From an uncultured Pontibacter sp. (lineage in GTDB: Bacteria > Bacteroidota > Bacteroidia > Cytophagales > Hymenobacteraceae), in contig NZ_CANLZM010000010.1 of assembly GCF_947495565.1 (NCBI RefSeq), positions 124,001 through 188,000 on the forward strand: a stretch of DNA of 64,000 nt, in the 5' to 3' direction. A model generated the notes under the pieces. It saw only the letters and a list, made by a program, of their open reading frames with translations. It did not search any database and was not told the DNA's origin. The stretch's first letter is position 1. Each line of letters opens with the position of its first letter. A program made the position numbers and the translations under genes. Shown piece by piece: positions 44,060-64,000 of this stretch.

Positions 44060-44161
44060 TTATACTTTAGTTATTATTTTCAGGGCGCAAATATACAATA
44101 TTTTAGCCAGCTATGCGCGCCTTTGTCCCTGAATTAAAGGAAGTAGGGCAGGAGGTAACGC

Positions 44162-44204
44162 TAAACGATAAAGCCCACAGCGGTGCCGTGGGCTTTATCG
44201 TTTA
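44162..44204. terminator. Terminator hairpin after the DUF3276 gene
   Basis: Perfect 17-bp stem (44162-44178 and 44188-44204; TAAACGATAAAGCCCAC) with a 9-nt loop. It ends the minus-strand DUF3276 transcript. Confidence 0.88.
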
Positions 44205-44226
44205 ACTTATATGAAAAAGTGGTGCG

Positions 44227-44559: not shown

Positions 44560-44640
44560 CGTTATTTAGACGTTAAATTCAACCTTGAGAACCTAAAAGT
44601 AATATATACTTCTGATATATAAAAGTTTTGTAATTTAAAA

Positions 44641-44670
44641 TTCGCCTAAATAATTTTAATTCTATATTTG
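44641..44670 (+). promoter_or_regulatory. Bacteroidota-type promoter of the RlpA-DUF58 operon
   Basis: A perfect TATATTTG (-7, 44663-44670) with TTCG, one mismatch from TTTG, 18 bp upstream (44641-44644). The implied transcript starts near 44677, 18 nt before the ATG. Confidence 0.55.
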
Positions 44671-44694
44671 TAGCCGGACCAACCATGTAATACT

Positions 44695-45105
44695 ATGAAT
44701 ATGTGTTCAGTAGTATTGATTTCTCTGCTTTCGTTCTTTTCGGTAACCGCCGAATACACTGCAACTGGCAAAGCCTCTTTTTACGCAGACCGCTTGCAGG
44801 GCCACAGAACAGCCAGCGGAGAGAAGTATGATAAATTACAGTTTACGGCCGCTCACGCTTCGCTTCCCTTCAACACCAAAGTACAGGTTACCAACCTGAA
44901 AAACGGAAAAACAGTAATAGTGCGCATCAACGACCGCATGGCCTCCAGCCGCCACCGCGTTATAGATGTTTCCAGAGCTGCTGCCAAAGAACTGGATATG
45001 GTGCGCGACGGAACAGCCACAGTGAGCCTCGCGCTAGTATCAGAGGAGGAGGCACAACAAGAAGCCCCATTTGCCGTTTCAAACTCAGAAGCCACACCAA
45101 AGTAG
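44695..45105 (+). CDS. RlpA-like double-psi beta-barrel protein
   Basis: The 136-residue secreted protein has a Sec signal (residues 1-18) and a double-psi beta-barrel domain of the RlpA type (about 22-115): [43 protein letters not shown] and [23 protein letters not shown]. The catalytic Asp of lytic transglycosylase RlpA (IND) is kept; in Pseudomonas RlpA it cuts glycan strands without stem peptides. The SPOR domain of larger RlpA proteins is missing, so it would not be drawn to septa by denuded glycan. It is 6 bp before the DUF58 gene. Confidence 0.88.
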
Positions 45106-45111
45106 TAACCT

Positions 45112-46023: not shown

Positions 46024-46073
46024 ATTGCTGTACGCAAGTATAAATCAGCTGAATACCTTCTCTAAAATCACCA

Positions 46074-47666: not shown

Positions 47667-47742
47667 AATTTATGTAGTTGTTTGTTAAGAGCTAAAAGTA
47701 TAGTTTTTGATTTTCTGCTATAAATACTCTTAACCTAAGCGG

Positions 47743-49389: not shown

Positions 49390-49696
49390 AGTTGAATTTT
49401 ATAAATGATGTTTCGGCACCCGGACTCAACTACTGCGATTAAGTACGGCGGGTTTCGGGTAGTTCTGTTTTTACGTATAAAGTATGGCAGAAACTTCCTG
49501 CCGTTCCAAAGTTAAAAAATCCTGCAAATAAAGCAGATTTACTTCAGGGTTTAAAGACGTGCCACAGCGGGACATCAATTATACTTCTGATGCGTAGGTA
49601 AATAGTTGTAAATGAGTTGTTGCGGAAGATGAAACGCAGATTGAAGTATTGTTTCTCCAACACTTAATTCAGAATTATCACTAAAAATAAATAAGT
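49390..49696. other. Divergent intergenic region, pgi / small protein
   Basis: The 307 bp hold the promoters of pgi and the small 65-residue gene. It is AT-rich to the right, with a TATACTT at about 49580. No RNA gene or strong hairpin was seen. Confidence 0.5.
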
Positions 49697-49894
49697 ATGA
49701 AAGAGCAGGATAAAAAGCAAAATAAAGAGCAAAAGCCGGGACATGCAGACGGAAAAGGAATTTTAAGAGAAGATGACGGAAAGCGCACACCACCGGGGCC
49801 TACGGGTTATGTAACAGGCGGGAATAACCCTGCCACCAGACCTGAGCAGGGGCCGGACGTGCCACCGCAAGAGCGAACAGAGGGTATTCCGTAG
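49697..49894 (+). CDS. Small hydrophilic protein, disordered
   Basis: The 65-residue ORF is Lys/Glu-rich at the start (MKEQDKKQNKEQKPGHADGK) and Gly/Pro-rich at the end (RPEQGPDVPPQERTEG), with no Cys and almost no hydrophobic residue. This fits an intrinsically disordered protein rather than chance translation. It is 43 bp before the P-type ATPase, on the same strand, so both may be cotranscribed. No function is recognised. The composition recalls small stress-induced hydrophilic proteins, but this is only an impression. Confidence 0.6.
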   Translation: MKEQDKKQNKEQKPGHADGKGILREDDGKRTPPGPTGYVTGGNNPATRPEQGPDVPPQERTEGIP

Positions 49895-49937
49895 CCCTCA
49901 CACTAAGTTGCATTGACACCAGAAAGCGGCTATAAAA

Positions 49938-52658
49938 ATGGCTATAGATCAGAAGTTTCCATACCACTGCATCACTACAGAACAGGCGCTGGAGAAGCTG
50001 CAGTCTGGTAGAGATGGGCTGACTGATAAAGAGGCCAAAACCAGGCAGCAGCAGTATGGGCCAAACGAACTGACCGGCAGAGAGGGCATCAACCCCGTCG
50101 TTCTGTTCCTGCGGCAGTTCAAGGATTTTCTGATATTGGTGCTGGTGCTTGCAGCCGGGGTTGCCTGGTATGCAGGCCATATGGTGGATGTGTATGTGAT
50201 TTTTGGCGTCATTTTGTTTAACGCCCTCCTTGGTTTTTTTCAGGAGTACCGGGCCGAAAAAGCAATTCAGGCGTTGAAAAACATGCTGAAGCAGGAGGCC
50301 AAGGTACTCCGAAACCGCCAGCAGAAAACGGTGGAGGCTAGGGAGCTGGTGCCTGGCGATGTTATAGTTTTAGAAGAGGGCGACGGTATTCCGGCTGATG
50401 CACGCCTGTTGCGCTGCAAAAATCTACAAACCATAGAGGCCTCCCTCACCGGCGAATCTCTGCCGATAGATAAGCAAACTGATCCTCTTGAAGAGAATGT
50501 AAGTTTAGGCGACAGGTTGAACATGCTTTGGAAAGGCACGCATGTAGCCAGAGGATCTGCCCAAGCCGTCGTAACTGCTATCAGCGGAGATACAGAATTA
50601 GGCAAAATATCCCAATCGCTTGGTTCCATCAAGGCCACGGCCACCAACTTCAGGAAAAAGACAGAGCGGCTGGCCAAGCAGATGGCCCTTATCTCTATTA
50701 TCACCTCTGCCATCGTTTTTATACTTGGCTACTTCATCCGGAATTATGCTTTCGAGGAGGTGCTGCTGATTACGGTAGCTACCCTTGTATCTTCAATTCC
50801 GGAGGGCTTGCCGGCTGTTATCACCATTGTGCTGGCTATAGGTGCCAACCGAATGGCCAAGCAGCACGCTATCACGCGCGAGTTCGCAGCCACCGAAATG
50901 CTAGGCTCTGTATCGGTTATACTTACAGATAAGACCGGCACCCTCACAAAAAGTATACTTACCGTCGGGAAACTGTACCTGGGCGATGGTCTTGAGCTGG
51001 AAGTGTCCGGTACAGGTTACATGCCTGAAGGAGATCTATCGCGCAACGGAGAAAGTATAAACCTCTCAGAAAGCAAGGTGCTGCAAAAGCTGCTGCTGAT
51101 CTCTAAATTCTGTAACAACGCACATATAGGCGAGGCTAAAATAGATGAAAGTGAAAGGGCAAATGAGCCAGAAGTAACTGGAGACCCAACAGAGGTAGCC
51201 TTGCTTGTGTTATCTAAAAAAGCGGAGGCGAAACAAAAAAATGCGCTGCCTAATGCACAGGTGATTGACGACCTGCCGTTTAATTCGGAGCAGAAATTTA
51301 GGGCAACATTGGCTGAGGTAGAAGGAGAGCGAGAGCTGCTAACTGTCGGGGCACCAGAGAAAATACTAAGTTTAAGCACTCATATTCTTACCCAGGATGG
51401 GCCGCAGGAGCTGAGCGATGGGGTGCGGCAGCGCATACAGGAGAAAAACGATGCATGGGCCGACAACGCCATGCGTGTGTTAGCCCTTGCCTACCGCCAA
51501 GCCGATGCACTGGGCGATGAAGCAAAAAGCGATGATGTGAATGATTTAGTTTGGGTAGGCATAACCGGTATCATCGACCCGCCCAGAAGTGGGGTGCAAA
51601 AGGCCGTGGCCGACTGCAAGACTGCCGGGATACGCGTCCTAATGGTAACCGGCGACCACAAAAAAACAGGCGCAGCCATAGCCCGTGAGGTTGGTATACT
51701 TTCCCCGGAGAAATCAGAGGCTGAGTTTCCGCTGGCTTTGCAGGAAGACGAGCTGGAGTCTTCGGCGTACAGCTTTGGAGAGCTTGTAGATAATGTATCC
51801 GTTTTTACACGGGTGAGTCCCCAAACAAAACTCCGTATTGCCGAGCAACTCCAGGAGAAAGGGCACCTGATAGCCATGACCGGCGACGGGGTGAATGATG
51901 CACCGGCACTTAAGAGGGCTGATGTAGGGATTGCCATGGGGATTCGGGGTACGGATGTGGCTAAAGATGCGTCCCAAATCGTGCTTTCTGATGACAATTT
52001 TACTACCATAGTGCGGGCGGTGCGTGAAGGGCGTATTGTGTTCCAGAATGTGCAGCAGACAAGCTTTTTCCTGCTGACAACTAACTTTGCTTTCGTAGCG
52101 GTCTTTATCATAACGATCTCAATCGGATGGCCTTTTCCGCTTACAGCTACACAAATACTTTGGGTAAATCTGGTAACAGATGGCGTTATGGAGCTTGGTT
52201 TGGCAACGGAGCGGGGGCATGGCGATATTATGAAAAGAGAACCCGTGCCACGCGATGCCAACATTTTAGATAAAAGCGTGGTGCCTTACATACTGCTGAT
52301 GAGTGTCGTGATGCTGGGCCTAACACTCGCCGTTTTCTCCTATTACCTGCCCCAGGGGGAGGAGTTAGCTCACACCGGCGTCTTCATCGTAATCGCCATG
52401 ACTCAGGTCTACAATACCTTTAATATGCGCTCACTGGAGCATTCGGTTTTTCAAATTGGGGTGTTCAGCAACAAGTATGTTAATATAGCCTTTGTCGCCT
52501 CCGTTGCACTGCAGCTACTGGTAATTTACACCCCATTTCTGAGTGGAGTCTTTAATTTTAAGGAGCTGCCTATCGTTGATCTGTTGATTATCATCTTGCT
52601 ATCCAGCACAGTAATTTGGGCGGCGGAAGCTTATAAATGGTTTAAGAGAAAAAAATAA
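49938..52658 (+). CDS. P-type Ca2+/Mn2+-transporting ATPase (P2A type)
   Basis: The 906-residue pump has an N-terminal cation-ATPase domain, the actuator TGES motif (SLTGESLPID), TM4 with PEGLPAVITIVLAIG, the phosphorylation motif with Asp331 in DKTGTLT, and hinge MTGDGVNDAPALKRADVG. TM6 reads QILWVNLVTDG, keeping the Asn and Asp of calcium site II. In TM5 the Asn-x-x-Glu of SERCA site I is Asn-x-x-Phe (TTNFAFVAVF), so probably only one ion site remains, as in PMR1/SPCA-type pumps. It exports divalent cations from the cytosol. The long C-terminal four-helix part is typical of P2A ATPases. Confidence 0.93.
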   Translation: MAIDQKFPYHCITTEQALEKLQSGRDGLTDKEAKTRQQQYGPNELTGREGINPVVLFLRQFKDFLILVLVLAAGVAWYAGHMVDVYVIFGVILFNALLGFFQEYRAEKAIQALKNMLKQEAKVLRNRQQKTVEARELVPGDVIVLEEGDGIPADARLLRCKNLQTIEASLTGESLPIDKQTDPLEENVSLGDRLNMLWKGTHVARGSAQAVVTAISGDTELGKISQSLGSIKATATNFRKKTERLAKQMALISIITSAIVFILGYFIRNYAFEEVLLITVATLVSSIPEGLPAVITIVLAIGANRMAKQHAITREFAATEMLGSVSVILTDKTGTLTKSILTVGKLYLGDGLELEVSGTGYMPEGDLSRNGESINLSESKVLQKLLLISKFCNNAHIGEAKIDESERANEPEVTGDPTEVALLVLSKKAEAKQKNALPNAQVIDDLPFNSEQKFRATLAEVEGERELLTVGAPEKILSLSTHILTQDGPQELSDGVRQRIQEKNDAWADNAMRVLALAYRQADALGDEAKSDDVNDLVWVGITGIIDPPRSGVQKAVADCKTAGIRVLMVTGDHKKTGAAIAREVGILSPEKSEAEFPLALQEDELESSAYSFGELVDNVSVFTRVSPQTKLRIAEQLQEKGHLIAMTGDGVNDAPALKRADVGIAMGIRGTDVAKDASQIVLSDDNFTTIVRAVREGRIVFQNVQQTSFFLLTTNFAFVAVFIITISIGWPFPLTATQILWVNLVTDGVMELGLATERGHGDIMKREPVPRDANILDKSVVPYILLMSVVMLGLTLAVFSYYLPQGEELAHTGVFIVIAMTQVYNTFNMRSLEHSVFQIGVFSNKYVNIAFVASVALQLLVIYTPFLSGVFNFKELPIVDLLIIILLSSTVIWAAEAYKWFKRKK

Positions 52659-52949
52659 GCTGCTCTCGGATTAGTATCGTATAAAAATATAGGCTAAAGC
52701 GTATTTTATACCTGATTTACTAAAATTAATGCGCTTAAGCTTAAGTAAAACACAGTGAACATATACAATTTAATAGCCGTAGATGCTGTAACTATGGGGG
52801 CATGTGCCTATATTTGAAGAGCCAGATAAAGGAGGTGTCAAATCAACTTCTTCGGCATAAACTTTAGAAGTGGCTGCGTCTGCCAAGGTAGCCAGCCGGC
52901 AGGGTTTGCCGTTTAAACCAGTGAAAACCTATCAAGCAAAGTTATACTT
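52659..52949. other. Intergenic region before the sugar-phosphate block
   Basis: The 291 bp carry no ORF or RNA signal that I recognise. A TATACTT lies close to the start of the first HAD gene. Confidence 0.45.
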
Positions 52950-53729
52950 ATGAGTAATCTGAGTAATCTTATACAAGAAAAAAATATTAAGGCCCTTATT
53001 TTCGATATGGATGGCGTGATCACAAACACAGCCGGGCTGCATGCTGAAGCATGGAAAAAACTGTGCGATTCCTTTTTACGCCAGCGAAGCGAGCAGGACG
53101 GCAAAAGCTACGCGCCTTTCGATCTGAAAGAGGATTACCAGACGTATGTGCACGATGTTCCCAGAATTGATGCTATGCGTAACTTCATGGCCTCACGAGG
53201 TATTACATTGCCAGAAGGCGAGCCTAACGAAGGCGCAGGCAGCAATACACTGGTAGGCTTGGGCGAGCGCAAAGACTTTTATTTCCATGAGTTGCTGAAG
53301 CAGAACGGTGTGGTTGTGTTTGAAGATGCCATTAAGTGGGTGAAGGAGCAGCAGCAGGCCGGCATGAAAACAGCCATTGTATCAGGAAGCCGCAACTGCC
53401 TGAACATACTTCGCCGCGCAGGCTTAGAAAAACTTTTTGAAGTGCGTGTTGATAAAGTAGTAGCCAACGAACTGAAAATGAACAGCAAGCCTGCGCCGGA
53501 CATTTACCTGGAAGCCGCCAAAAAGCTTGGTGTGCAGCCGCAGGAAACAGCTGTTTTCGAGGATACTGTAGGAGGTATAGAAGGTGCAAAAGCCGGAAAC
53601 TTCGGGCTGATTGTAGGCGTGGACCGTGGCTTTATGAAAGAAACCCTCGAAACAAAAGGTGCTCATACAGTTATCAAGAATTTCACCTCAGAACTTCACG
53701 AGAGAGCAGCTTCCTCTTTAAGTTCTTAA
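52950..53729 (+). CDS. Beta-phosphoglucomutase-type HAD hydrolase, copy 1
   Basis: The 259-residue HAD-superfamily protein has the aspartyl nucleophile pair in LIFDMDGVITNTAGLHAEAW (about residues 17-36), the Ser/Thr motif in AIVSGSRNC, the Lys in KPAPDIYLEAA and the acidic motif FEDTVGGIEGAKAG. The DMDG pair and the cap domain match the beta-phosphoglucomutase branch, which turns beta-glucose-1-phosphate into glucose-6-phosphate. The block YRRYVDG-like region and LPEGE match the subfamily found beside GH65 phosphorylases in actinobacteria. It precedes a paralog (53901), OtsB and GH65 on the same strand. Confidence 0.88.
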   Translation: MSNLSNLIQEKNIKALIFDMDGVITNTAGLHAEAWKKLCDSFLRQRSEQDGKSYAPFDLKEDYQTYVHDVPRIDAMRNFMASRGITLPEGEPNEGAGSNTLVGLGERKDFYFHELLKQNGVVVFEDAIKWVKEQQQAGMKTAIVSGSRNCLNILRRAGLEKLFEVRVDKVVANELKMNSKPAPDIYLEAAKKLGVQPQETAVFEDTVGGIEGAKAGNFGLIVGVDRGFMKETLETKGAHTVIKNFTSELHERAASSLSS

Positions 53730-53743
53730 TTTCAGCACATTGC

Positions 53744-53793
53744 TAAAAGTATAAAAGGCGCCCTTTCTTAAAAGGGCGCCTTTTATACTTTTA
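53744..53793. terminator. Hairpin between the two HAD genes with the word in both arms
   Basis: Perfect 23-bp stem (53744-53766 and 53771-53793) with a 4-nt loop. The outer arms are TAAAAGTATA and its complement, so the stem contains AAGTATA in one arm and TATACTT in the other. It ends with a T tract. Confidence 0.94.
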
Positions 53794-53900
53794 ATACAGC
53801 CATGCTTCTGAGGCATTGGCAAAAAACCAAATGTGGTAAAACCAAGTATGATTTTTAGGGATGCCTACCAAAGCTTTATACTTCAAAATTACACCACTAC

Positions 53901-54650
53901 ATGCCTCATAACGACTTTTTTCAACTAATCAAAGAGAAGCACATTAAGGCGCTAATTTTTGACCTGGATGGCGTGGTTACGCAAACTGCCAAAGTGCACG
54001 CCAAAGCCTGGAAGCGAATGTTTGATGCTTACTTGGAGCAACGGGGGCAGCGTGAGGGTAAAGTTTACAAGCCATTGGAAATTGCTACTGATTACCGCCG
54101 TTACATAGATGGTATTCCTCGCTATGATGGTGTTCGTAATTTCCTGGCTTCCAGAGAAATAACCTTGCCTGAAGGCACTCCCACCGATATGCCCGGAAAA
54201 GAAACTGTGGCTGGCCTGGGCAACAGAAAAAATGCTTATTTTCAGGAGCTGCTGCAAGAGGGTGGCATTGCGGTTTATCCGGATACGGTAGCATTTATAG
54301 AGCAAATGCAGGGGCAGGGGCTGCAAACTGCTATTATTTCAGCAAGTAAAAATTGCCAAGCTATACTTGCAGCGGCAGGCCTTGATAAGCTGTTTGAGGT
54401 GAGGGTGGACGGGGTGCTGTCAGCGGAACTGGGGCTTAAGGGCAAGCCTGCCCCGGATATTTTTTTGGAGGCATCACGTAGGTTAGGAGTAAAGCCAGCG
54501 CATGCAGCCGTTTTCGAGGATGCCTTAGCCGGAGTGGAGGCAGGCAAAGCGGGCGGTTTCGCACTGGTGGTAGGCATAGCCCGAACTGATGAATCTGATG
54601 AATTAAAACTACATGGCGCCGATTTGGTGCTTCAAAAATTTCCAAGTTAA
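53901..54650 (+). CDS. Beta-phosphoglucomutase-type HAD hydrolase, copy 2
   Basis: A 249-residue paralog of the preceding HAD gene with the same plan: LIFDLDGVVTQTAKVHAKAW, YRRYIDGIPRYDGVRNFLASR, AIISASKNC, KGKPAPDIFLEASRRLGV and FEDALAGVEAGKAG. The YRRYIDG-PRYDGVRNFLASR stretch is more typical of the trehalose/GH65-linked HAD subfamily than copy 1, so this may be the dedicated beta-phosphoglucomutase. It is 9 bp before otsB. One copy could act on another sugar phosphate or as a phosphatase. Both keep every catalytic residue I can see. Confidence 0.88.
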   Translation: MPHNDFFQLIKEKHIKALIFDLDGVVTQTAKVHAKAWKRMFDAYLEQRGQREGKVYKPLEIATDYRRYIDGIPRYDGVRNFLASREITLPEGTPTDMPGKETVAGLGNRKNAYFQELLQEGGIAVYPDTVAFIEQMQGQGLQTAIISASKNCQAILAAAGLDKLFEVRVDGVLSAELGLKGKPAPDIFLEASRRLGVKPAHAAVFEDALAGVEAGKAGGFALVVGIARTDESDELKLHGADLVLQKFPS

Positions 54651-54659
54651 AACCATACT

Positions 54660-55481
54660 ATGATGAACTCTAGCTCCAGCCAAGTACAGAAGCAGGACGG
54701 TAAAAACCTCCCTTCAGCTCTTAAAAAGGTAAAAGAGTTGCTGCAAGGCAAAACGCCTGCTGTGTTTCTGGACTATGACGGCTGCCTGACGCATATAGTC
54801 AAAGATCCTGACAAAGCTATACTGACAGATGGTATGCGAAACACACTGCAGCAGTTGGCAGCAGAATGCCCTGTGGCGGTAGTAAGTGGCCGCGACCGAG
54901 CGAATGTAGAGCAACTGGTGCAATTAAATAACCTGTATTACGCTGGTTCTCATGGGTTTGATATTTCAGGACCTAATAACATGCACACAGAACCTGGTGG
55001 AGCAGCCGCAGCCATACCTGCCCTAGATAAAGCGCAGGCTGACCTTAACGAGCGGCTGAACAAGATAGACGGCGCCCTGGTAGAGCGGAAGCGCTACGCC
55101 ATAGCGGTGCATTACCGTAATGTAGCAGAAGAACAGGTAAGCGAAGTGCTGGAAGCGACGCAGGACGTACTCAGCAAGTATAAGGAGCTGAAGCCAGGCC
55201 CCGGAAAAAAGATCATGGAGTTGAAGCCTAATTTAGACTGGCATAAGGGTAAGGCGGTGCATTGGCTCCTGGAGGAGTTAAATCTAAAAAAGTCTGATAT
55301 TATTCCGTTATACATCGGGGATGACTTGACAGATGAGGATGCTTTTGCCGCTTTGCAAGGCAAGGGGGTAAGTATACTGGTTGGCGAACATGATGAGGAG
55401 ACCGCTGCAGATTACAGATTGGAAAGCGTGGAGGAGGTGCAGGAGTTTTTAATTGAACTGACGCAATATCTTAAAGAATAA
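54660..55481 (+). CDS. otsB: Trehalose-6-phosphate phosphatase
   Basis: The 273-residue HAD phosphatase has the DxD-type nucleophile in VFLDYDGCLTHIVKDP (about residues 35-50), VAVVSGRDR, the Lys of KPNLDWHKGKAV, and YIGDDLTDEDAF with metal-binding acids. The family hydrolyses trehalose-6-phosphate to trehalose. No OtsA synthase is in the window, so the substrate supplier lies elsewhere. It is 3 bp before the GH65 gene. A role in glucosylglycerate- or sucrose-phosphate dephosphorylation is possible but the DYDG/IGDDLTDED pair favours trehalose. Start at the doublet ATG at 54660. Confidence 0.93.
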   Translation: MMNSSSSQVQKQDGKNLPSALKKVKELLQGKTPAVFLDYDGCLTHIVKDPDKAILTDGMRNTLQQLAAECPVAVVSGRDRANVEQLVQLNNLYYAGSHGFDISGPNNMHTEPGGAAAAIPALDKAQADLNERLNKIDGALVERKRYAIAVHYRNVAEEQVSEVLEATQDVLSKYKELKPGPGKKIMELKPNLDWHKGKAVHWLLEELNLKKSDIIPLYIGDDLTDEDAFAALQGKGVSILVGEHDEETAADYRLESVEEVQEFLIELTQYLKE

Positions 55482-55484
55482 GCC

Positions 55485-57887
55485 ATGTCTGACTGGAAAG
55501 TAGTTTACGAAGATTATCTGCCAGGGCAGCAACAGCTAAGGGAAGCGCTTTGTACGCTTGGTAACGGCTACTTTGCCACCCGCGGAGCGTTTGAGGAGTC
55601 TAGCGCAGATGATAGCGTAAACTACCCTGGCACCTACCTGGCTGGTGGCTATAACCGCCTTTTTACCGAACTGGCCGGTAAGCAAATTGAAAATGAGGAC
55701 CTGGTAAACTGGCCTAACTGGCTGCCCCTTACTTTTCGGCATCCGGGCGAGGAGTGGTTTAGCCTCAGAAAGGTAAAGCTGATCAGCTTTCGGCAGGAGC
55801 TGGACATGCACCAGGGGCTGCTGGAGCGGCAAATGCACTTCCGGGACGAGAAGGACCGGGAGACTATGCTGGTCAGCAGACGGCTGGTAAGTATGGCCAA
55901 CAAGCATGTAGGCGCAGTCAATTGGGAGCTTACGCCACTGAACTGGTCTGGTGTACTTGAAATTTCGTCTGCGCTGGATGGGAAAGTGACCAACAGCTGC
56001 GTTTCCCGCTACCGCGACCTCAACAGTAAACATCTCCGCTCACTCTTTCAGGGCCAGCATAACGATGAAACTATTTATCTGGAAGTAGAGACGGTGCAGT
56101 CGGGGCTGTCTATGGCGCAGGCAGCCCGAACACGTATATACTTAGAGCCTTCTAATGATAAAATAGAACGTGAGCTGCTGATGGAGGAAGGGTACATTGA
56201 GCAGCGTATAAAATTTAAATGCCAGGAGGGACACCCAGTCATCATTGAGAAAGTGGTGCAAATTCATACTTCCCGCGATCAGGCAATCACGGAGCCGCTG
56301 CAGGAAGCACGCAAGAACATTGACCGGCAGGGCAGCTTTCCTCACCTGCTGGATAAGCACAAGAGTGCCTGGCAGCGCCTCTGGAACCGCTGCGACCTTA
56401 TACTTGCCTGCAACATGCAGGCACAATCTATCCTGCGGCTGCACATTTTCCATCTGCTTCAGACTGTCTCTGCCAACACAGTAGGTATGGATGTAGGCGT
56501 GCCAGCGCGGGGTTTGCACGGCGAAGCTTACCGTGGGCATATCTTTTGGGATGAGCTTTTCATTTTTCCTTTCCTGAACCTGCGCCTTCCGGAGTTAACG
56601 CGGGAATTGCTTCTTTACCGGTACCGCCGCTTACCCGAGTCACGGTATGCAGCCTCGCAGGCAGGTTACCGGGGAGCTATGTTTCCGTGGCAGAGCGGCA
56701 GCAACGGCCGCGAAGAAACCCAGGAAATACACTTAAACCCCAAGTCAGGCCGCTGGCTACCTGATAATACGCACCTGCAACGCCACATTAGCGCGGCCAT
56801 CGCTTACAACGTTTGGCAGTATTTTCAAGCTAATGAAGACATGGCGTTTATGACCTTTGTGGGCGGTGAAATGATTTTTGATATCGCGCTGTTTTGGTCT
56901 ACCGTAGCCGTTTTTAACGCAGATCGGGGCCGTTACGAGATACATAATGTAGTTGGCCCTGATGAGTACCATACCGACTACCCAGACTCAGAACAGCCCG
57001 GGCTAAATAACAATGCCTATACAAACGTGATGGCCGTGTGGGTTATTCAGGCTGCCTTAAAGCTGCTCGATATTTTAGACGACTCACGTGTGGAGGAGCT
57101 TTTTCAGAAGCTAGCTATAACCGAACAGGATGTGAAGCGCTGGAAAGCCATCACCGAAACCATGTATGTGCCCTTTATTGGTGATACCAACATCATCGCC
57201 CAGTTTGAAGGCTACGAGCAGTTGGAGGAGTTTCCGTGGGAGGAGTATAAAACTAAGTATGGAGAAGCCATGCGGCTAGACCGAATCCTGGAAAGCGAAG
57301 GTAAAGATGTTAATAAGTATAAAGCCAGCAAACAGGCAGATGTTCTGATGCTTTTTTACCTTTTTTCCTCAGAAGAACTGGTAGAGCTATTTCAGCGACT
57401 TCAGTATGACTTTAAGCCGGAAAGTATACCTGAAAATATTGCTTACTACGAACAACGGACTTCGCATGGGTCAACGCTGAGCAAAATTGTGCACTCCTGG
57501 GTATTGGCCCGCTCTGACAGAAAGCGCGCCTGGAGCAATTTTAAAACAGCCTTGGTGAGCGATGTGGAAGATGTGCAGGGAGGAACAACAGCCGAAGGAA
57601 TACATTTAGGCGCAATGGCTGGCACCGTAGACCTAGTGCAACGTAGTTTTACCGGTTTAGAGATAAGAGATAATGTGCTCTGGTTAAACCCAGTATTGCC
57701 GGAGGAGATTGGCTGTCTCAAGTTTCAGATCCGTTACCGGGGCCACTGGGTCTCGCTGGAAGTCACGCACGATACACTGCGCATTACCTTCGACAGAGGC
57801 TGGTCAAACGAAGTGCTGATCGGGGTTTTGGGCGAAGTTTATACTTTCCAAACAGGAGAGGAGCGTGAGTTTGATATTGCCCAATAA
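55485..57887 (+). CDS. Glycoside hydrolase family 65 phosphorylase
   Basis: The 800-residue protein has the GH65 layout: an N-terminal beta-sandwich (residues 1-270), a linker, an (alpha/alpha)6 barrel (about 300-690) and a C-terminal beta-domain (LKFQIRYRGHWVSLEVTHD). The general-acid Glu lies in NVVGPDEYHTD (about residue 490), and the phosphate-binding KQADVLMLFYL and GSTLSKIVHSW motifs are present. GH65 enzymes are inverting phosphorylases that split maltose, trehalose, kojibiose, nigerose or related alpha-glucosides into beta-glucose-1-phosphate and a sugar. The neighbour otsB favours trehalose as substrate, but specificity cannot be read from the sequence alone. Confidence 0.94.
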   Translation: MSDWKVVYEDYLPGQQQLREALCTLGNGYFATRGAFEESSADDSVNYPGTYLAGGYNRLFTELAGKQIENEDLVNWPNWLPLTFRHPGEEWFSLRKVKLISFRQELDMHQGLLERQMHFRDEKDRETMLVSRRLVSMANKHVGAVNWELTPLNWSGVLEISSALDGKVTNSCVSRYRDLNSKHLRSLFQGQHNDETIYLEVETVQSGLSMAQAARTRIYLEPSNDKIERELLMEEGYIEQRIKFKCQEGHPVIIEKVVQIHTSRDQAITEPLQEARKNIDRQGSFPHLLDKHKSAWQRLWNRCDLILACNMQAQSILRLHIFHLLQTVSANTVGMDVGVPARGLHGEAYRGHIFWDELFIFPFLNLRLPELTRELLLYRYRRLPESRYAASQAGYRGAMFPWQSGSNGREETQEIHLNPKSGRWLPDNTHLQRHISAAIAYNVWQYFQANEDMAFMTFVGGEMIFDIALFWSTVAVFNADRGRYEIHNVVGPDEYHTDYPDSEQPGLNNNAYTNVMAVWVIQAALKLLDILDDSRVEELFQKLAITEQDVKRWKAITETMYVPFIGDTNIIAQFEGYEQLEEFPWEEYKTKYGEAMRLDRILESEGKDVNKYKASKQADVLMLFYLFSSEELVELFQRLQYDFKPESIPENIAYYEQRTSHGSTLSKIVHSWVLARSDRKRAWSNFKTALVSDVEDVQGGTTAEGIHLGAMAGTVDLVQRSFTGLEIRDNVLWLNPVLPEEIGCLKFQIRYRGHWVSLEVTHDTLRITFDRGWSNEVLIGVLGEVYTFQTGEEREFDIAQ

Positions 57888-57917
57888 ACTATTTTCACTT
57901 AAACATTTACCAATCGC

Positions 57918-58868
57918 ATGAGCGATGTAATCACAATTACCTTAAACCCAGCCTTAGACAAAAGCACACACGTGCCGCTGGTGCTGCCCGAAAAAAAACT
58001 ACGGTGCGATGAGCCAACCTATGAGCCGGGTGGAGGCGGTATCAACGTATCCAGGGCCTTAAAGAAGCTTGGCAGTAACTCTTCCGCCTGGGTGCTGGTT
58101 GGCGGCCCGTCCGGTGAGCGCATCTGTAAGTTGCTGGAAGACGAAGGTGTAGAGTATAAGGCGATCAAAACTAAAAACTGGACCCGCGAAAACCTGATGG
58201 TGATGGAGAGCAACTCCGGCAACCAGTACCGGTTTGGTATGCCGGGCCCGGAAGTGCAGGAGCAGGAGTGGCGGCAGTGTTTGGAGGAACTGGAGCAACT
58301 ATCACCTGAAAAAACACCCAAGTATGTTGTTGCTAGCGGTAGCCTTCCGCCGGGAGTGCCGGACAATTTTTACGAGCAACTCGCTACTATCGCGCACCGA
58401 AAAAATTTTCGTCTGATAGTGGATACTTCCGGGGATGCCCTGCTGAATGCAGCAGGAGAGGGAGTATACCTGCTTAAGCCTAACTTAGGTGAGTTGGCAG
58501 CGCTGGCAGGCAAGGAGAAAATATCGGCTATGGAGCAGGAAGAAATTGCCAAGCAGGTGCTGGAACAGGGGAAATGCAAGGTGCTGGTGGTATCGTTAGG
58601 GCCGCGCGGCGCTATGCTGGCCTCCCAAGAAGGTATAACCTATGTGGTGCCGCCAACCATGCCACAGCAGAGTGCCGTTGGTGCCGGCGATAGTATGGTG
58701 GCTGGTATGGTGCTTTGTCTGCTTGAAGGCGGCAGCTTAAGCGATATGGTGCGGTATGGTGTGGCAGCTGGTACTGCCGCTACCATGACTCCCGGTTCTG
58801 AGCTTTGCCGTAAAGAAGACACAGATAAAATTTACCAATGGCTTCTGGAGCACAAGGAGCAGGTATAA
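57918..58868 (+). CDS. pfkB: 6-phosphofructokinase II (PfkB type)
   Basis: The 316-residue sugar kinase is close to E. coli PfkB: TLNPALDKSTHVPL, EPGGGGINVSRALKKLG (about residues 36-52), the WTRENLMV segment, SGSLPPGVP, and the catalytic-base motif SAVGAGDSMVAGMV with Asp in GAGD (about 257). It phosphorylates fructose-6-phosphate to fructose-1,6-bisphosphate with ATP. It is the last gene of the sugar block and is convergent with fbaA, whose product uses its product. 1-phosphofructokinase or tagatose-phosphate kinase activity is possible within the family, but the PfkB likeness is stronger. Confidence 0.9.
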   Translation: MSDVITITLNPALDKSTHVPLVLPEKKLRCDEPTYEPGGGGINVSRALKKLGSNSSAWVLVGGPSGERICKLLEDEGVEYKAIKTKNWTRENLMVMESNSGNQYRFGMPGPEVQEQEWRQCLEELEQLSPEKTPKYVVASGSLPPGVPDNFYEQLATIAHRKNFRLIVDTSGDALLNAAGEGVYLLKPNLGELAALAGKEKISAMEQEEIAKQVLEQGKCKVLVVSLGPRGAMLASQEGITYVVPPTMPQQSAVGAGDSMVAGMVLCLLEGGSLSDMVRYGVAAGTAATMTPGSELCRKEDTDKIYQWLLEHKEQV

Positions 58869-58869
58869 A

Positions 58870-58903
58870 AAAGTATGGCGAGGTTTTCGACTCGCCATAC
58901 TTT
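58870..58903. terminator. Terminator between pfkB and fbaA with AAGTATG in both arms
   Basis: Stem AAAGTATGGCGAG (58870-58882, last base approximate) with CTCGCCATACTTT (58891-58903), 8-nt loop, bidirectional. AAGTATG, a close relative of the dispersed word, forms the base of the stem. Confidence 0.92.
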
Positions 58904-58913
58904 ACATATTGTA

Positions 58914-59990
58914 TTAGTTGCGGTTATTCGCGTTAAGGTCAGTGAACGCCTCTTTCAAACGGGCGATAAAATTCTTCTCGCCTTCACGAAGCCATACGCG
59001 TGGGTCGTAGTACTTCTTGTTGGGAGAGTCCTCACCGTCCGGGTTGCCGATCTGGCTCTGCAGGTAACCTTTTTTATCCTCGTAATAATTACGGATACCT
59101 TCCCAGAATGCCCACTGCATGTCGGTGTCAATGTTCATTTTGATGGCGCCATACTCAATAGCTTCCTTAATCTGGTGCTTCTCAGAGCCTGAGCCACCAT
59201 GGAACACGAAATGAACAGGGTTAGGGCCTGTGCCGAACTTCTGCTGGATGAAGTCCTGAGAGTTTTTCAGGATATCAGGTCGTAGCTCTACGTTACCCGG
59301 CTTATATACACCGTGTACATTTCCGAAGGCCGCCGCAATGGTAAAGCGCGTGCTTATTTTGTTCAGCTCTTCGTAGGCATAAGCTACCTCTTCCGGTTGC
59401 GTATACAGTCTGGAGCTATCAACGCCTGTGTTGTCCACGCCGTCTTCCTCTCCGCCGGTTACACCCAACTCAATTTCTACGGTCATGCCCATACGGTCCA
59501 TACGCTTCAAGTAGCTGGCGCAGGTTTCGATGTTCTCTTTGATTTCCTCCTCAGAAAGGTCCAGCATGTGAGAGCTGTATAGCGGCTTGCCGTGCTGCTC
59601 AAAGTATTTTTCACCTGCATCCAGCAGGCCGTCAATCCAAGGGAGCAGTTTTTTTGCAGCGTGGTCTGTGTGCAGTACTACAGGCACACCGTAAGCTTCA
59701 GCCATCAGGTGCACGTGCTGGGCTCCTGAAATAGCGCCGGCGATAGCAGCTTTCTGCTCGTCGTTTGCTAAGCCTTTACCGGCAAAAAACTGTGCTCCGC
59801 CATGGGAGAACTGGATAATTACTGGTGAGTTTACTGCTTTTGCCGTTTCAAGAACAGCGTTTACAGAGTCAGTGCCAATTACGTTTACGGCAGGAAGCGC
59901 GAAGTTATTCTCATTCGCATACTTGAAAAGCTCTGTTACTTCATCACCGAAAAGTACACCCGGTCTGAATCTTGTTTTAGTTTCGTTCAC
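58914..59990 (-). CDS. fbaA: Class II fructose-bisphosphate aldolase
   Basis: The 358-residue zinc enzyme cleaves fructose-1,6-bisphosphate to DHAP and glyceraldehyde-3-phosphate. Visible motifs are FALPAVNVIGTDS, the zinc His in PVVLHTDHAAKK (about residues 103-114), LDLSEEEIKENI, the GGEEDGVDN loop typical of the class IIA (E. coli-like) enzyme, and FVFHGGSGSEKHQIKEAI with a further zinc His. The start is a GTG at 59990, as an in-frame stop precedes it and no early ATG exists. It is convergent with pfkB. Confidence 0.96.
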   Translation of the reverse strand: MNETKTRFRPGVLFGDEVTELFKYANENNFALPAVNVIGTDSVNAVLETAKAVNSPVIIQFSHGGAQFFAGKGLANDEQKAAIAGAISGAQHVHLMAEAYGVPVVLHTDHAAKKLLPWIDGLLDAGEKYFEQHGKPLYSSHMLDLSEEEIKENIETCASYLKRMDRMGMTVEIELGVTGGEEDGVDNTGVDSSRLYTQPEEVAYAYEELNKISTRFTIAAAFGNVHGVYKPGNVELRPDILKNSQDFIQQKFGTGPNPVHFVFHGGSGSEKHQIKEAIEYGAIKMNIDTDMQWAFWEGIRNYYEDKKGYLQSQIGNPDGEDSPNKKYYDPRVWLREGEKNFIARLKEAFTDLNANNRN

Positions 59991-60101
59991 AGATTTATTT
60001 TATTAATGGTTGATTTAAAAGAATCCGTTTTAAATATTTTAAGACCTGAATTTAGGAGCCTTTTACTGTAAAAGCAAACGCAGCTCTCATACAAGCATAA
60101 G

Positions 60102-61607
60102 CTAATCAAATACGAGTACTTTATCTTTGTGTTTGCCACGCATATAGTTGCGGATAATCTGCTGCACGTCCTTGTTATCGTTGTAGCGTTGTATGGCAGA
60201 TTTAAAGTCCTCCAGGTTATTGGCAGAGAATGTTTCATCTACAAAACCAAACCCAAGATAAGTGCCGTGCTCTACTACAACCACGGAGCGCTCGCCCGGC
60301 TCACGGCCTTTGCCGATAATGACGAAGCTGGTGTGCTCATAAGTAAACGAGTCAATCGCCTCCTCCACACGTTTGTTATACTCCTCCGGACTTTCCTTGC
60401 CAATACAAGCCCCCTGGCACTGGTGGACCTGATGATCAAAGCATGCACCGTTTGTCTTGTACAAATCGCACAGTTTCTGGCAGAGGTTATACTTGGCTAC
60501 TTTATGGAAGAGGAAACCTTTGGCTTTAAAATGATTTGAAAGCGCGATAATTGGAGTCATGCTGATGTTGTCAGCTTTGTTCACGCTGCCGTAGCTAAGG
60601 CGTTTGTAGCCGTTTTCATCTTCGTAAACAAAGATACCGGTGTTAAACACACTGCGGCGCTGAGCGCGGTTGTACTGCGGTTTCATGCGCTTTATCTCAG
60701 CCGACTCGAACAGTAGCGATACCAGTTCATTGCCCATCAACTCATAGGATATATCCGTAATGTTGTTTTTAAAGTCAAGCGATTTGCGGCTTTTATAGTC
60801 TATGTTGAAATGCTGAATGATGCGTTTCTTTATGTTGATGCTTTTACCAACATAGATAACCTCGCCCTCCTCGTTATAAAAGTAATACACACCTGGCACC
60901 ATAGGGAGCGCATCTACCTGCTCTTTACTAATGGCTGGGGGCAGCAACGATGTTTTAATCTCCTGCTTCAGCACCTGCGAGGTATGCTCGGCGGCCATGT
61001 TCATGTTGCCGTCCACCACCGGGCGGTTGATCTTGATGAGCCTGTCGAAAAGTATGGCAGTGGCTTCGGCGTCGCCGATGGCGCGGTGCCTTTGGGTTAA
61101 GGGGATGTCTATACTTTTGCAGAGCTTGCCCAGGCTGTAAGATGGCAAACCGGGCATCAAAGAGCGGCTGAGGCGTACGGTGCAAAGCGTTTTGCGCTGA
61201 AAGGTGAAGCCAAGGTCGGCAAACTCCTTCTTCATAAACGAGTAGTCAAACCGTACGTTATGCGCTACAAATACCTTCCCCTCCGTAAACTCTACAATCT
61301 CTTTTGCCACCTCATAAAACTTAGGCGCGTCCTGCACCATGTCGTCTTTTATTCCTGTAAGTTGGGTGATAAAGTAGGGAATGGTGCGCTCAGGGTTTAT
61401 AAGCGTATGGTATTTGTCTACGATCTTCTCCCCATCGTGTATGAAAATAGCAATTTCGGTGATCTTGTCCTGGTGCGGCTGACCTCCGGTAGTCTCAATA
61501 TCTACTATCGCGTACAAGTTGCTTTGGTTTAGGTGGTGTTCATCGGGGCCGGAGGCATCTGCTGCGGGCCCTTCTTCTAAACCAAAATTCTTAGTAATCC
61601 GTTTCAA
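60102..61607 (-). CDS. DnaQ-like exonuclease fused to a GIY-YIG nuclease domain
   Basis: The 501-residue protein has an N-terminal DEDDh 3'-5' exonuclease (about residues 30-195: YAIVDIETTGG, AHNVRFDYSFM, HRAIGDAEATAIL) and a GIY-YIG domain (about 226-310: VPGVYYFYNEEGEVIYVGKS, with the Tyr, Arg and Glu of UvrC/Cho in place). A conserved Cys-rich region follows (NLCQKLCDLYKTNGACFDHQVHQCQGAC), as in UvrC and Cho. It resembles Cho/UvrC-type repair nucleases joined to a proofreading-type exonuclease, a fusion known in Bacteroidota and actinobacteria. The start is a TTG at 61607, the only start-like codon between an in-frame stop and the first domain. 42 bp separate it from the AI-2E-type permease gene. 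Confidence 0.9.
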   Translation of the reverse strand: MKRITKNFGLEEGPAADASGPDEHHLNQSNLYAIVDIETTGGQPHQDKITEIAIFIHDGEKIVDKYHTLINPERTIPYFITQLTGIKDDMVQDAPKFYEVAKEIVEFTEGKVFVAHNVRFDYSFMKKEFADLGFTFQRKTLCTVRLSRSLMPGLPSYSLGKLCKSIDIPLTQRHRAIGDAEATAILFDRLIKINRPVVDGNMNMAAEHTSQVLKQEIKTSLLPPAISKEQVDALPMVPGVYYFYNEEGEVIYVGKSINIKKRIIQHFNIDYKSRKSLDFKNNITDISYELMGNELVSLLFESAEIKRMKPQYNRAQRRSVFNTGIFVYEDENGYKRLSYGSVNKADNISMTPIIALSNHFKAKGFLFHKVAKYNLCQKLCDLYKTNGACFDHQVHQCQGACIGKESPEEYNKRVEEAIDSFTYEHTSFVIIGKGREPGERSVVVVEHGTYLGFGFVDETFSANNLEDFKSAIQRYNDNKDVQQIIRNYMRGKHKDKVLVFD

Positions 61608-61649
61608 ATCGCTCTGGTTGCTTTAATGCTGCAAATGCTGTTAGCAAAA

Positions 61650-62789
61650 TTACTCGTTCGGGTTCTTTTTGCCGCGCAAAATGCCATTTACTATTTCATC
61701 AAACCAATTCCGGACGCGCCCTTTCCTTTTTGGTTTCAACTCGTCCATATCTGCCATCAGAAAACCAATTGGTTGCAGCGGCTCATACACATCAAAAATC
61801 ACTTTCATCATGGCAATCATCGGGATAGAGAGAATCATACCTGCCGCTCCCCAAACCTCACCGCCGATCAAGAGGGCAAGTATGGCCGCAAACGGGTTCA
61901 GGCTTACTTTAGAGCCCACCACAAACGGAGTGATAAAGTTACCTTCCAGAAACTGCACAAACATAAAAACTATTACCACCAGCACCGCATCCAGCAGGTT
62001 GCCGGTAGTGGCTAGGGTAAAAAGGGCTGGCAGCGATGCGCCAATAAGTATACCGATGTAAGGAATAATGGTAAGTATGGAGGCAAACACCCCAAAGAAG
62101 ATGGCGTACTTTACGCCAAGTATAAGCAGCCCGGCAGTATTCAGCAGCGCCACCACCACAATTACAATCATCAGCCCAGAAATGTAGCTCTGCACCACAT
62201 GTTGTATGTCCGTTATGGTCTTGATGACACCTCCGCGCCGGTCTTTGGTCACAAACTTGAATAGAAACTGCTCCAGGTGATCGCGGTAGTATAGCAGCAG
62301 GAATACAAAAATAGGCACCAAAGTAAGAACTGTAATAGCGCCTGTGGTGATAGAAATAGTACTGCCCAGAAACGTGGTGGTAAACTCCTGCAGCCCGCCA
62401 ATAGCATTCTGAAACAACTCTGACTTATTAGGTGGCGCAATGCCGAAATTGCTAAGCATGAACTCCTGCATCCTGGTTATCAGCTTTTGCATGTTTTTAC
62501 CTATCGTCTCCAGCTCAGAAGCAAGGCTAACCAGCTGCATGGATAACAGCCAAACCACCAGGCCAAGTATAACAATTACCAGCGTGATGCTGGCAAGTAT
62601 GGCCAAAGGCCTTGGGAAGCGCAGCTTTTTCTCCAGGTCACGAGTAAGTGGAAGCAGCAGCAAGGCAAAGAGAAGTCCAAAAGCCAAAGGCATTAAAATC
62701 GCCTTGAATGCCTGTAGTGTGTATATAAGCAGGGCGAAGCCCAGAAGTATAACAGTGTATTTAAAATAAGCGGGTAGTTTTATTTCCAT
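61650..62789 (-). CDS. AI-2E family transporter
   Basis: The 379-residue integral membrane protein has about eight helices. They include FKYTVILLGFALLIYTLQAF at the start, the paired LAILASITLVIVILGLVVWLL, and the conserved C-terminal run VGSKVSLNPFAAILALLIGGEVWGAAGMILSIPMIAMMKVIFD. This is the AI-2 exporter-like family (PerM/TqsA/YdiK). Despite the name, members transport varied substrates, including Na+/H+ exchange in some; the substrate here is unknown. It is upstream of the exonuclease fusion on the same strand. Confidence 0.9.
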   Translation of the reverse strand: MEIKLPAYFKYTVILLGFALLIYTLQAFKAILMPLAFGLLFALLLLPLTRDLEKKLRFPRPLAILASITLVIVILGLVVWLLSMQLVSLASELETIGKNMQKLITRMQEFMLSNFGIAPPNKSELFQNAIGGLQEFTTTFLGSTISITTGAITVLTLVPIFVFLLLYYRDHLEQFLFKFVTKDRRGGVIKTITDIQHVVQSYISGLMIVIVVVALLNTAGLLILGVKYAIFFGVFASILTIIPYIGILIGASLPALFTLATTGNLLDAVLVVIVFMFVQFLEGNFITPFVVGSKVSLNPFAAILALLIGGEVWGAAGMILSIPMIAMMKVIFDVYEPLQPIGFLMADMDELKPKRKGRVRNWFDEIVNGILRGKKNPNE

Positions 62790-63135
62790 TTAACAATTTG
62801 TTGACATTTGTCGGATTTGCCAAGGTCTGTGTCTGCCTCTCAAAATAAGCGAATGTTAAGCGTTAAAGCATCTATTTATTAATATATAAAGTTGCTAAAT
62901 AATTTAGTTAAAACACCTTTAAAATGCTGGAGGTTTGCTGAACTAGCTTCATGATTATACTGTTAATAGACAGATGCAGCTTTTTGAGTAAGGAGAATAA
63001 CTAAAATAATTAGTAAATCATTTAGGTTCTTCTTAATTTAGCCTTGGATAGGAACTATTCAGTTGCGTCTTGTTTTCTATATTTTCCTATCTTTCGCATT
63101 GATATTACCTAATCAACTACACTTACGCTTACAGA
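62790..63135. other. Divergent intergenic region, AI-2E / parE
   Basis: The 346-bp AT-rich region carries the promoters of both neighbours. Before parE, TATCTTTC near 63109-63116 differs by one base from the TAnnTTTG -7 element, with a TTG about 18 bp upstream. I see no ORF or RNA gene. Confidence 0.45.
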
Positions 63136-64000
63136 ATGGCAGAGTTAGAGCACAATTACAATGAAGACAGCATCCGCTCCCTGGAGCCCCGCGAACACAT
63201 CAGGCTGCGCCCGGGTATGTATATCGGTAAACTGGGCGATGGTTCTTCGGCAGACGACGGTATTTACATTTTAGTAAAAGAGGTAATCGATAACTCCATC
63301 GACGAACACGTGATGGGTTACGGTAAGACTATCGAGGTCAAAATATCCGACCACAAAGTGCAGGTGCGCGACTACGGCCGTGGTATTCCGTTGGGTAAGG
63401 TAATTGACTGTGTGAGCAAGATCAACACCGGCGGCAAGTATGACAGCAAGGCCTTCCAGAAGTCTGTGGGTTTGAATGGTGTGGGTACTAAAGCGGTAAA
63501 TGCGCTTTCCAGCCATTTCCGGATTCAGTCTGTGCGTGATGGTAAAATGAAAGCCGCCGAATTTGAGAAAGGCTTGCTGACAGACGACCAGGAGGTGCAG
63601 GACTCTAGCCAGCGTAACGGTACCCTCACAATCTTTACTCCGGACGATTCCATCTTTAAGAATTATCAGTTTAACCCGGACTACCTGGAAAACCAGATAT
63701 GGAACTATGTGTATCTGAATGCTGGTCTGACTATAAATTTCAACGGTAAAAAATTCTACTCTGAAAACGGCCTGCTGGACCTGCTCCGCAACAAAGCCGA
63801 CGAGGAGAGCATGCGTTACCCGATCATCCACCTGAGAGGAGAGGATATAGAATTAGCCCTGACGCATGGCAATGACTACGGTGAGGAGTATTACTCGTTT
63901 GTGAACGGCCAGTACACAACTATGGGCGGTACGCACCTGGCGGCTTTCCGCGAAGCAGTAGTGAAGACCGTGCGCGACTTCTACAAAAAAGACTATGATG
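63136..64000 (+). CDS. parE: DNA topoisomerase IV subunit B (partial, runs off the window)
   Basis: The ATG at 63136 opens a frame that continues to the end of the window. It encodes the GHKL ATPase domain of a type II topoisomerase: [19 protein letters not shown] (residues 19-37), the ATP-binding [23 protein letters not shown] and [16 protein letters not shown]. The [20 protein letters not shown] form and the DNSIDEH variant (not DNSVDE) fit the Bacteroidota ParE rather than GyrB. ParE provides ATP-driven strand passage with ParC to separate daughter chromosomes. Confidence 0.93.

Follow-up and report, generated by a model that had tools for sequence, protein, structure and literature searches.

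Our analysis strongly supports the view that the short word AAGTATA is maintained throughout the genome of an uncultured Pontibacter (Hymenobacteraceae). A preliminary description had read it as a selected word and not as background composition, and this part of its claim is strongly supported by the genome-wide excess, the existence of dialects and their dialect-specific conservation. Judged from these sequence patterns, it is somewhat probable that the word works like a DNA uptake-sequence watermark. In the 4.52-Mb source genome, AAGTATA occurs 8,095 times (3,975 forward and 4,120 reverse, or about one copy per 560 bases), against 436 copies of the reversed control. The window, i.e., the whole 64,000-base stretch analysed here (1..64000), holds 105 AAGTATA and 64 AAGTATG on its two strands. 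Shuffled sequences gave 7.5 for AAGTATA, and 16.3 for AAGTATR against the 169 observed. Every one of 20 sampled 20-kb stretches carries 24 to 48 copies of AAGTATA.

Within 464 kb of the source genome, 625 of 898 AAGTATA copies lie in genes, 263 are intergenic and 10 fall at edges; the word is 2.7 times denser in intergenic DNA than in genes. Because the gene calls came from a home-made hexamer finder, these limits are approximate. The genic copies are oriented with the gene in 300 cases and against it in 325, and all six reading frames are used. Therefore, neither codons nor peptides explain the word, and such an origin was rejected. A single long gene of the HAMP-repeat, chemotaxis-receptor-like type (14010-18515) occupies the longest word-free gap in the 464 kb. 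Furthermore, the excess of AAGTATAA fell with rising mismatches from 29.5x to 2.71x, 1.16x and 1.00x, and the gradient of four permuted AAGTATAA controls was flat. Uptake sequences are likewise reported to lose over-representation with mismatch load (excerpted text of PMC1939737).

Across the order (291 genomes), a strong word excess is confined to Pontibacter. With a word called present at a 5x cut-off, the 50 Pontibacter genomes comprise 19 with AAGTATA only, 12 with AGGTATAG, 4 with AACTATAG, 4 with at least two words and 11 with none. The three dialects (AAGTATR, AGGTATAG and AACTATAG) thus cover 39 of the 50 genomes; they differ by one-base changes, and TATA is constant. The excess in word-bearing genomes ranges from 9- to 79-fold, and the highest AAGTATA ratio was 38.5x; 37 relatives were sampled. 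In a 35-genome tree, 10 AGGTATAG genomes form a single clade nested in AAGTATA genomes, and 7 wordless genomes are placed in at least three separate spots. Wordless genomes are also larger (mean 5.71 versus 4.59 Mb, 11 versus 39 genomes; Mann-Whitney p 3.5e-6, without phylogenetic correction), as expected if the word filters foreign DNA. As a separate observation, a further word, ACCTAGG, with the palindromic core CCTAGG, has a patchy occurrence in one neighbouring genus and is also used by two genomes from the largest of the sister genera.

Gene alignments show that every word is retained solely between genomes sharing its dialect. Compared with same-composition controls, own-dialect conservation was 3.63x (95% 2.44-4.84), 3.41x (2.19-4.19) and 2.25x (1.65-2.82), with a thin AACTATA set; the bootstrap was taken over 11 genes because the cells are genome pairs, which are not independent events. 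Conservation towards other dialects or wordless genomes was 0 to 1.13x. In the tree and conservation tests, three genomes were labelled by hand: the bilingual P. fetidus as AACTATA, and the bilingual uncultured Pontibacter 903 and genome G334 as AAGTATA. These controlled tests supersede a comparison of in-place dialect switching, which was discarded as confounded by plain homology.

Dialect-specific conservation would look alike under any co-evolving sequence-reading protein. The word could thus be a site bound by some abundant protein, chromosome-organising or otherwise, and be selected per se, with no link to uptake or recombination. The even spacing of the copies (variance/mean 1.19 in 5-kb bins) fits such a site as well. 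However, the word is absent from 11 of the 50 genomes of the genus and its function is therefore dispensable, which would be unusual for a nucleoid protein; we consider this explanation quite improbable.

Close parallels to the uptake-sequence reading come from the Proteobacteria. The uptake sequences of Pasteurellaceae differ from the Pontibacter word in being longer motifs, in gammaproteobacteria with type IV pilus machinery. They share with it the general anatomy and the mismatch gradient (excerpted text of PMC1939737). The likeness to the DNA uptake sequences of Neisseriaceae, as far as described in the excerpted text of PMC3630211, includes thousands of short copies on both strands of genic and intergenic DNA, single-base dialects along the phylogeny, two dialects in one genome, overlapping dyads and terminator-like hairpins made of inverted pairs. 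In contrast, the Pontibacter word belongs to Bacteroidota, is A+T-rich, has inverted pairs in one dialect only and comes without a detected type IV pilus ATPase; a receptor and uptake itself would be assigned to it by analogy. Its words of 7-8 bases are short for uptake sequences. In the cited literature, as excerpted, uptake sequences are described for Pasteurellaceae and Neisseriaceae only (PMC3630211, PMC1939737), and for Bacteroidota our literature search returned nothing of the kind other than the k-mer table in PMC7965970.

No convincing PF00437 (PilB/PilT-type) ATPase was found in the 50 Pontibacter genomes, where matches were short and weak and barely above the cut-off in 3. Therefore, the machinery that in Neisseria carries the ComP-type receptor is missing here. 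ComEC, on the other hand, is present in 50 of 50 genomes; as these include the wordless ones, it does not track the word. Riemerella, also of the Bacteroidota, has ComEC-based transformation whose essential genes include no pilus proteins, and R. columbina favours its own DNA (excerpted texts of PMC7965970 and PMC8459023). As a difference, the Riemerella k-mer table contains only words of low complexity that are rich in A/T, and an uptake sequence is not identified there (excerpted text of PMC7965970). The Riemerella DUF5689 transformation protein likewise has no Pontibacter counterpart that tracks the word. Matches to PF18942 (DUF5689) occur in 22 of 50 Pontibacter genomes in two size classes, and in genome G000 the gene order, with neighbours named by eye, is SusD-like, DUF5689 and calcineurin-like phosphatase-type. 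Since relatives of this G000 protein are absent from most AAGTATA genomes, it was rejected as a general receptor. The ComEC neighbourhoods of four genomes, out of 13 retrieved, were read by eye and contained no obvious receptor.

We infer uptake, a receptor and recombination as the driving force. A putative surface or periplasmic receptor would favour word-bearing DNA, so that fragments carrying the word would be taken up and recombined more often, and copies born by mutation would spread and be kept. Where the taste of the receptor shifted, the word of the genome would follow, giving dialects; where the system was lost, the words would decay. Copies at gene ends could join terminator hairpins, as intergenic DNA would be most tolerant and AAGTATR...YATACTT would supply the A-rich and T-rich flanks. 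More tentatively, Pontibacter may carry a pilus-free Bacteroidota uptake watermark whose evolution was separate from that of the proteobacterial systems and which has three or more dialects as well as bilingual species; with ACCTAGG added, the whole Hymenobacteraceae would have shifting uptake words. We regard this wider picture as possible rather than probable. If true, a system that arose separately in a different phylum and lacks type IV pili would allow the causes of word accumulation to be probed anew, be they preferred uptake, selection for exchange with kin or mere molecular drive. The 50 species, with their three dialects, their bilingual genomes and the repeated loss of the word, would constitute a natural experiment for this purpose. 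Should the word instead resemble the HIP or Chi words considered below, it would still be a very strong, unexplained genome-wide signal.

The cyanobacterial HIP1 and alternate HIP words resemble the Pontibacter word in their extreme but patchy over-representation and in their replacement by other words in some genomes, and they are tied to methyltransferases (excerpted text of PMC4390886). As has been proposed for HIP1, a HIP-like word would be made and kept by DNA methylation or by a repair system favouring it, and genomes with a different enzyme would have a different word. The full palindrome around 33% of AACTATAG copies, the palindromic core of the other Hymenobacteraceae word and the excess of close convergent AAGTATR pairs (overlapping dyads) within genes (23 versus 6.9 expected) are compatible with this. 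However, HIPs are palindromes rich in G+C that come with matching methyltransferases, whereas the main Pontibacter words are A+T-rich and asymmetric, only 6% of AAGTATA and 3% of AGGTATA copies lying in a full palindrome. The PF01555 methyltransferases, the single large family searched, occur in 31 of 50 Pontibacter genomes independently of the word: 13 word-bearing genomes lack them, and 5 of the 11 wordless genomes have them. This family was therefore rejected as partner of the word, as its distribution does not follow it. A HIP-like origin appears rather unlikely.

The word might also be a Chi-like or chromosome-polarity signal, recognised by a DNA translocase or by an enzyme of the RecBCD/AddAB type, as it is short, asymmetric and lineage-specific. 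In E. coli, about three quarters of Chi sites lie on the leading strand. We observed only a slight strand bias in relation to GC skew on one chromosome (G308; 20 stretches, 400 kb), with ratios of 288:233 at high skew and 239:272 at low skew (rho 0.46, p 0.043). This is far below the polarity expected of such signals, and Chi-like polarity was rejected as weak at best in these strand counts. Moreover, the 9- to 79-fold excess of the word is beyond that of Chi in E. coli (1,008 versus 151 expected; excerpted text of PMC1939737). Such a role is therefore very unlikely.

The two hairpins that drew attention to the word, listed with their flanking genes in Table 1, carry it as an inverted pair exactly as the preliminary description had claimed, and strong folds were computed for both. 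Hairpin 1 folds as RNA at -34.9 kcal/mol (z -9.75), and hairpin 2 at -21.7 kcal/mol on the + strand and -20.2 on the - strand (z -6.4 and -6.6). Both have the intrinsic-terminator feature of a stable, G+C-containing stem just 3' of a stop codon: 14 bases separate the HAD-hydrolase stop at 53729 from hairpin 1, and hairpin 2 sits between convergent genes for a pfkB-type kinase and a class-II aldolase. Neither was reported by a strict intrinsic-terminator scan and no T-run follows the stem directly; the T runs lie mainly within the 3' arms. Hairpin 1 is likely an intrinsic terminator for the upstream HAD-hydrolase gene, and hairpin 2 likely a two-way terminator.

Table 1. Hairpins, word copies and neighbouring genes in the window
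Feature	Position	Strand	Family
Hairpin 1, 23-bp perfect stem and 4-base loop, word as inverted pair	53744..53793	+	
AAGTATA, 5' arm of hairpin 1	53747..53753	+	
AAGTATA (TATACTT when read on +), 3' arm of hairpin 1	53784..53790	-	
Hairpin 2, 13-bp perfect stem and 8-base loop, convergent genes either side	58870..58903	.	
AAGTATG, 5' arm of hairpin 2	58871..58877	+	
AAGTATG (CATACTT when read on +), 3' arm of hairpin 2	58896..58902	-	
HAD-family hydrolase gene, upstream of hairpin 1	52950..53729	+	PF00702, PF13419
Second HAD-family hydrolase gene, downstream of hairpin 1	53901..54650	+	
pfkB-family sugar kinase gene, ending 1 base ahead of hairpin 2	57918..58868	+	PF00294
Class-II fructose-bisphosphate aldolase gene, ending 10 bases past hairpin 2, convergent	58914..59990	-	PF01116
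Longest word-free gap in 464 kb of the source genome	13950..18179	.	

As evidence for a selected word, these hairpins are weak. In samples of AAGTATR-dialect genomes, to which the bilingual G302 and G334 samples were assigned, the word forms an inverted pair in 20 of 213 intergenic hairpins. With each paired stem scored twice, its density there is 1.4x that of other intergenic DNA (71/7958 versus 1027/159509 positions). In samples from the genomes of the two sister dialects, no hairpin held its own dialect's word as a pair (0 of 41 and 0 of 35). The excess of the word in stems that had been predicted from its placement was thus only narrowly borne out, given the 1.4x density and the absence of pairs in the sister dialects, and this in samples of hairpins, not over the whole genome. 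The word has no special tie to terminators; the hairpins are a side effect of a genome-wide word.

Ordinary terminator composition, by which A-rich and T-rich stem sides alone would give both hairpins their AAGTAT, is highly improbable as the source of the word. It leaves unexplained the 18-fold genome-wide excess, the genic majority of copies and the lack of any such pair in 69 hairpins sampled from wordless genomes, and a terminator-only cause of the word was rejected on these counts. The modest enrichment over other intergenic DNA and the order of the pairs accord with it, and composition may well explain the geometry of the hairpins: AAGTATR...YATACTT outnumbers the opposite order by 18:2, because an A then precedes and a T follows the stem, as intrinsic terminators need, and the 3' side becomes T-rich.

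AAGTATA (taken with its form AAGTATR as the word) stands out as a striking signal throughout the genome, and it comes in dialects. It ranks first among the 7-mers of the window under a second-order Markov model (105 copies versus 7.5 in shuffles), and the whole genome of the window (G000; 4.52 Mb, 44 contigs) holds 8,095 copies versus 436 of the reversed control, i.e., the word read backwards. In 464 kb of samples from this genome, the consensus was approximately MAAGTATRA, and 24 to 48 copies were present in each of the 20 sampled 20-kb stretches. A simple gene finder placed 625 of 898 copies within genes, 263 between genes, and 10 at gene edges, corresponding to 1.56 per kb within genes and 4.20 per kb intergenic. 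The intragenic copies ran both along (300) and against (325) the gene, with all six frames represented. Any Chi-like polarity of the word is weak. Word-free gaps longer than 2 kb numbered 12 versus 4.6 expected, and each of the longest is taken up by one long gene. The longest gap, in the window, is filled by a gene for a HAMP-repeat receptor-like protein (Pfam; see the table), and another by an IF-2-like gene, named by eye. An IS3-type transposase, also identified by eye, lies within one of the gaps longer than 2 kb.

A strong AAGTATA excess over the reversed control was confined, among 291 genomes drawn from the order, to the genus of the window, i.e., Pontibacter in the wide sense (nearest named relatives by the aldolase protein: Pontibacter species and Botryobacter ruber). 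Four of the six genus members drawn exceeded 12-fold, one showed 2.1-fold and one 0.8-fold; the highest ratio outside the genus was about 2.5-fold. In samples of 37 relatives, many AAGTATA-poor genomes were rich in a one-base variant instead. Whole-genome counts for all 50 genus genomes, with a cut-off of 5-fold over the reversed control, assigned 19 to AAGTATA only (8.8- to 38.5-fold), 12 to a AGGTATAG dialect (23- to 79-fold), 4 to a AACTATAG dialect (32- to 51-fold), and 4 to two or more words (G202, G330, G334, and G302); 11 had no word at 5-fold, with G327 (4.8-fold) and G305 (4.0-fold) borderline. In a tree of 35 genomes, the 10 AGGTATAG genomes that it included grouped as a single clade (support 1.000) within the AAGTATA genomes; the wordless genomes that it covered, 7 in number, fell in at least three separate positions. 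The nested clade and the scattered wordless genomes suggest, on a midpoint-rooted tree of few genes (six from the window), an old AAGTATA state followed by a switch and several losses.

Several further observations concern the dialects. G202 holds 5,110 AAGTATA and 6,288 AACTATAG copies, and P. fetidus (L138) likewise has two dialect words together; two-word genomes look as if caught mid-switch. G327 (samples L071 and L132) is enriched in GGTATA, with 24 strand counts of GGTATACC palindromes versus 2.0 in 40 kb, and is perhaps a fourth, weaker dialect. Wordless genomes are larger (mean 5.71 Mb, n = 11, versus 4.59 Mb, n = 39; p = 3.5e-6 without phylogenetic correction). At G291:C1:1944098-1946633, in another genome, copies of AGGTATAG follow one another at intervals of about 66 bases (some 39 among the matches listed), a pattern resembling a tandem array, whether CRISPR-type or of another kind.

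Codon alignments of 11 window genes, in which the word of one genome was compared with another genome, revealed dialect-specific maintenance. Between genomes of the same dialect, the word was identical in 35.3% (1688/4777), 65.7% (626/953), and 51.4% (90/175) of cases for the three dialects; the corresponding figures for 7-mers of identical composition from those genes were 9.7%, 19.2%, and 22.8%. The resulting ratios were 3.63, 3.41, and 2.25, and none of their gene-bootstrap intervals reached down to 1, whereas ratios towards other dialects or wordless genomes were 0 to 1.13. Therefore, each word is retained only where it belongs to the local dialect. For the 37 words of G000 within these genes, the mean share of relatives that have AAGTATR at the corresponding position was 0.465 in its own dialect versus 0.067 to 0.107 elsewhere.

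The preliminary description had pointed to two window hairpins carrying AAGTATR inverted pairs, and both exist as claimed, with perfect stems and the word near the stem base. Their folding energies (−34.9 kcal/mol for hairpin 1 and −21.7 kcal/mol for hairpin 2) are well under those of shuffled sequences. Hairpin 1 lies between two HAD-hydrolase genes, downstream of one and upstream of the other, and hairpin 2 is flanked by convergent pfkB-kinase and aldolase genes. Neither was listed by a strict terminator scan, and the T runs of both fall mostly within the 3′ arms; judged by position and structure, they are likely terminators.

Features of the window discussed in the text
Feature	Position	Structure	Detail
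Hairpin 1	53744-53793	perfect 23-bp stem, 4-base loop	AAGTATA begins 3 bases from stem base
Hairpin 2	58870-58903	perfect 13-bp stem, 8-base loop	AAGTATG begins 1 base from stem base
HAMP-repeat gene product	14010-18515	1,501 residues	roughly ten HAMP domains plus an MCP signalling domain

The placement of the word at the base of terminator stems, the further point made there, is real but minor. In G000, the AAGTAT inverted pair occurs in 13 of 105 intergenic hairpins (stems of at least 10). Pooled over all AAGTATR samples, 20 of 213 hairpins (stems of at least 10 with at least 4 G-C pairs) carry the word as an inverted pair, 18 of these 20 in the order AAGTATR...YATACTT, and its rate per position is 0.0089 inside hairpins versus 0.0064 outside. 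However, none of the three words was paired in the hairpins of the sister-dialect samples (0/41 for AGGTATA, 0/35 for AACTATA), nor in those of wordless samples (0/69). The minor placement is accounted for by the high intergenic density of the word and the A/T geometry of terminators, and the terminator argument for the word is weak. Overlapping dyads are a stronger pair signal: close convergent word pairs in genes numbered 23 versus 6.9 under shuffled orientation, and close divergent pairs 0 versus 7.3. In the window and G000 samples (464 kb), overlapping AAGTATACTT dyads reached 52 strand counts versus 1.7 expected, which may hint at a dimeric reader.

In its anatomy the word matches an uptake-sequence watermark, and the balance tips slightly towards its working like a DNA uptake sequence. 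The word is not classed as a DNA uptake sequence, since one feature of known systems was tested and did not hold. Its excess declines with mismatch load (29.5, 2.7, 1.2, 1.0), as does that of published uptake sequences; since HIP1 declines similarly in the same table of PMC1939737, the gradient alone cannot separate the two. The main rival is an origin like that of the highly iterated palindromes (HIPs) of cyanobacteria, which also show alternate words and losses and are accompanied by methyltransferases (PMC4390886). Here the main words lack symmetry and are A+T-rich, and the one methyltransferase family searched, PF01555, does not track them, but 33% of the AACTATAG copies lie within a full palindrome. 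Against the uptake-sequence reading count the missing type IV pilus ATPase (50 genus genomes) and the failure to find a gene tracking the word: ComEC is universal, and the DUF5689 candidate has a patchy distribution. The ComEC matches of two word-rich genomes are interrupted by a stop codon (G326:C76:160505-161305, TAG; G309:C1:2771217-2771876, TAA), which may reflect defective competence genes or errors of sequencing. Riemerella belongs to the same phylum; its transformation requires ComEC, DprA, ComF, and RecA together with four proteins that have no assigned role, and an outer-membrane route has been proposed in place of pili (PMC8459023). R. columbina favours its own DNA, without an uptake word having been found (PMC7965970). 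Pilus-free uptake with a sequence preference would therefore not be far-fetched.

Another word, ACCTAGG, was equally extreme in 5 of 150 family genomes searched, all outside the genus of the window: three of one genus (G246, G288, and G346; counts of 5,096 versus 28, 5,341 versus 37, and 5,823 versus 72) and two of another (G255 and G383; counts of 8,746 versus 124 and 6,326 versus 5). Among the 150 genomes, no congener of these five showed the excess. ACCTAGG was dispersed across one 20-kb sample (L118). A weaker candidate for a further over-represented word is ATTGAAG, which is dispersed over a metagenome-assembled Bacteroidia contig (L208; 43 versus 7.8 within 21 kb).
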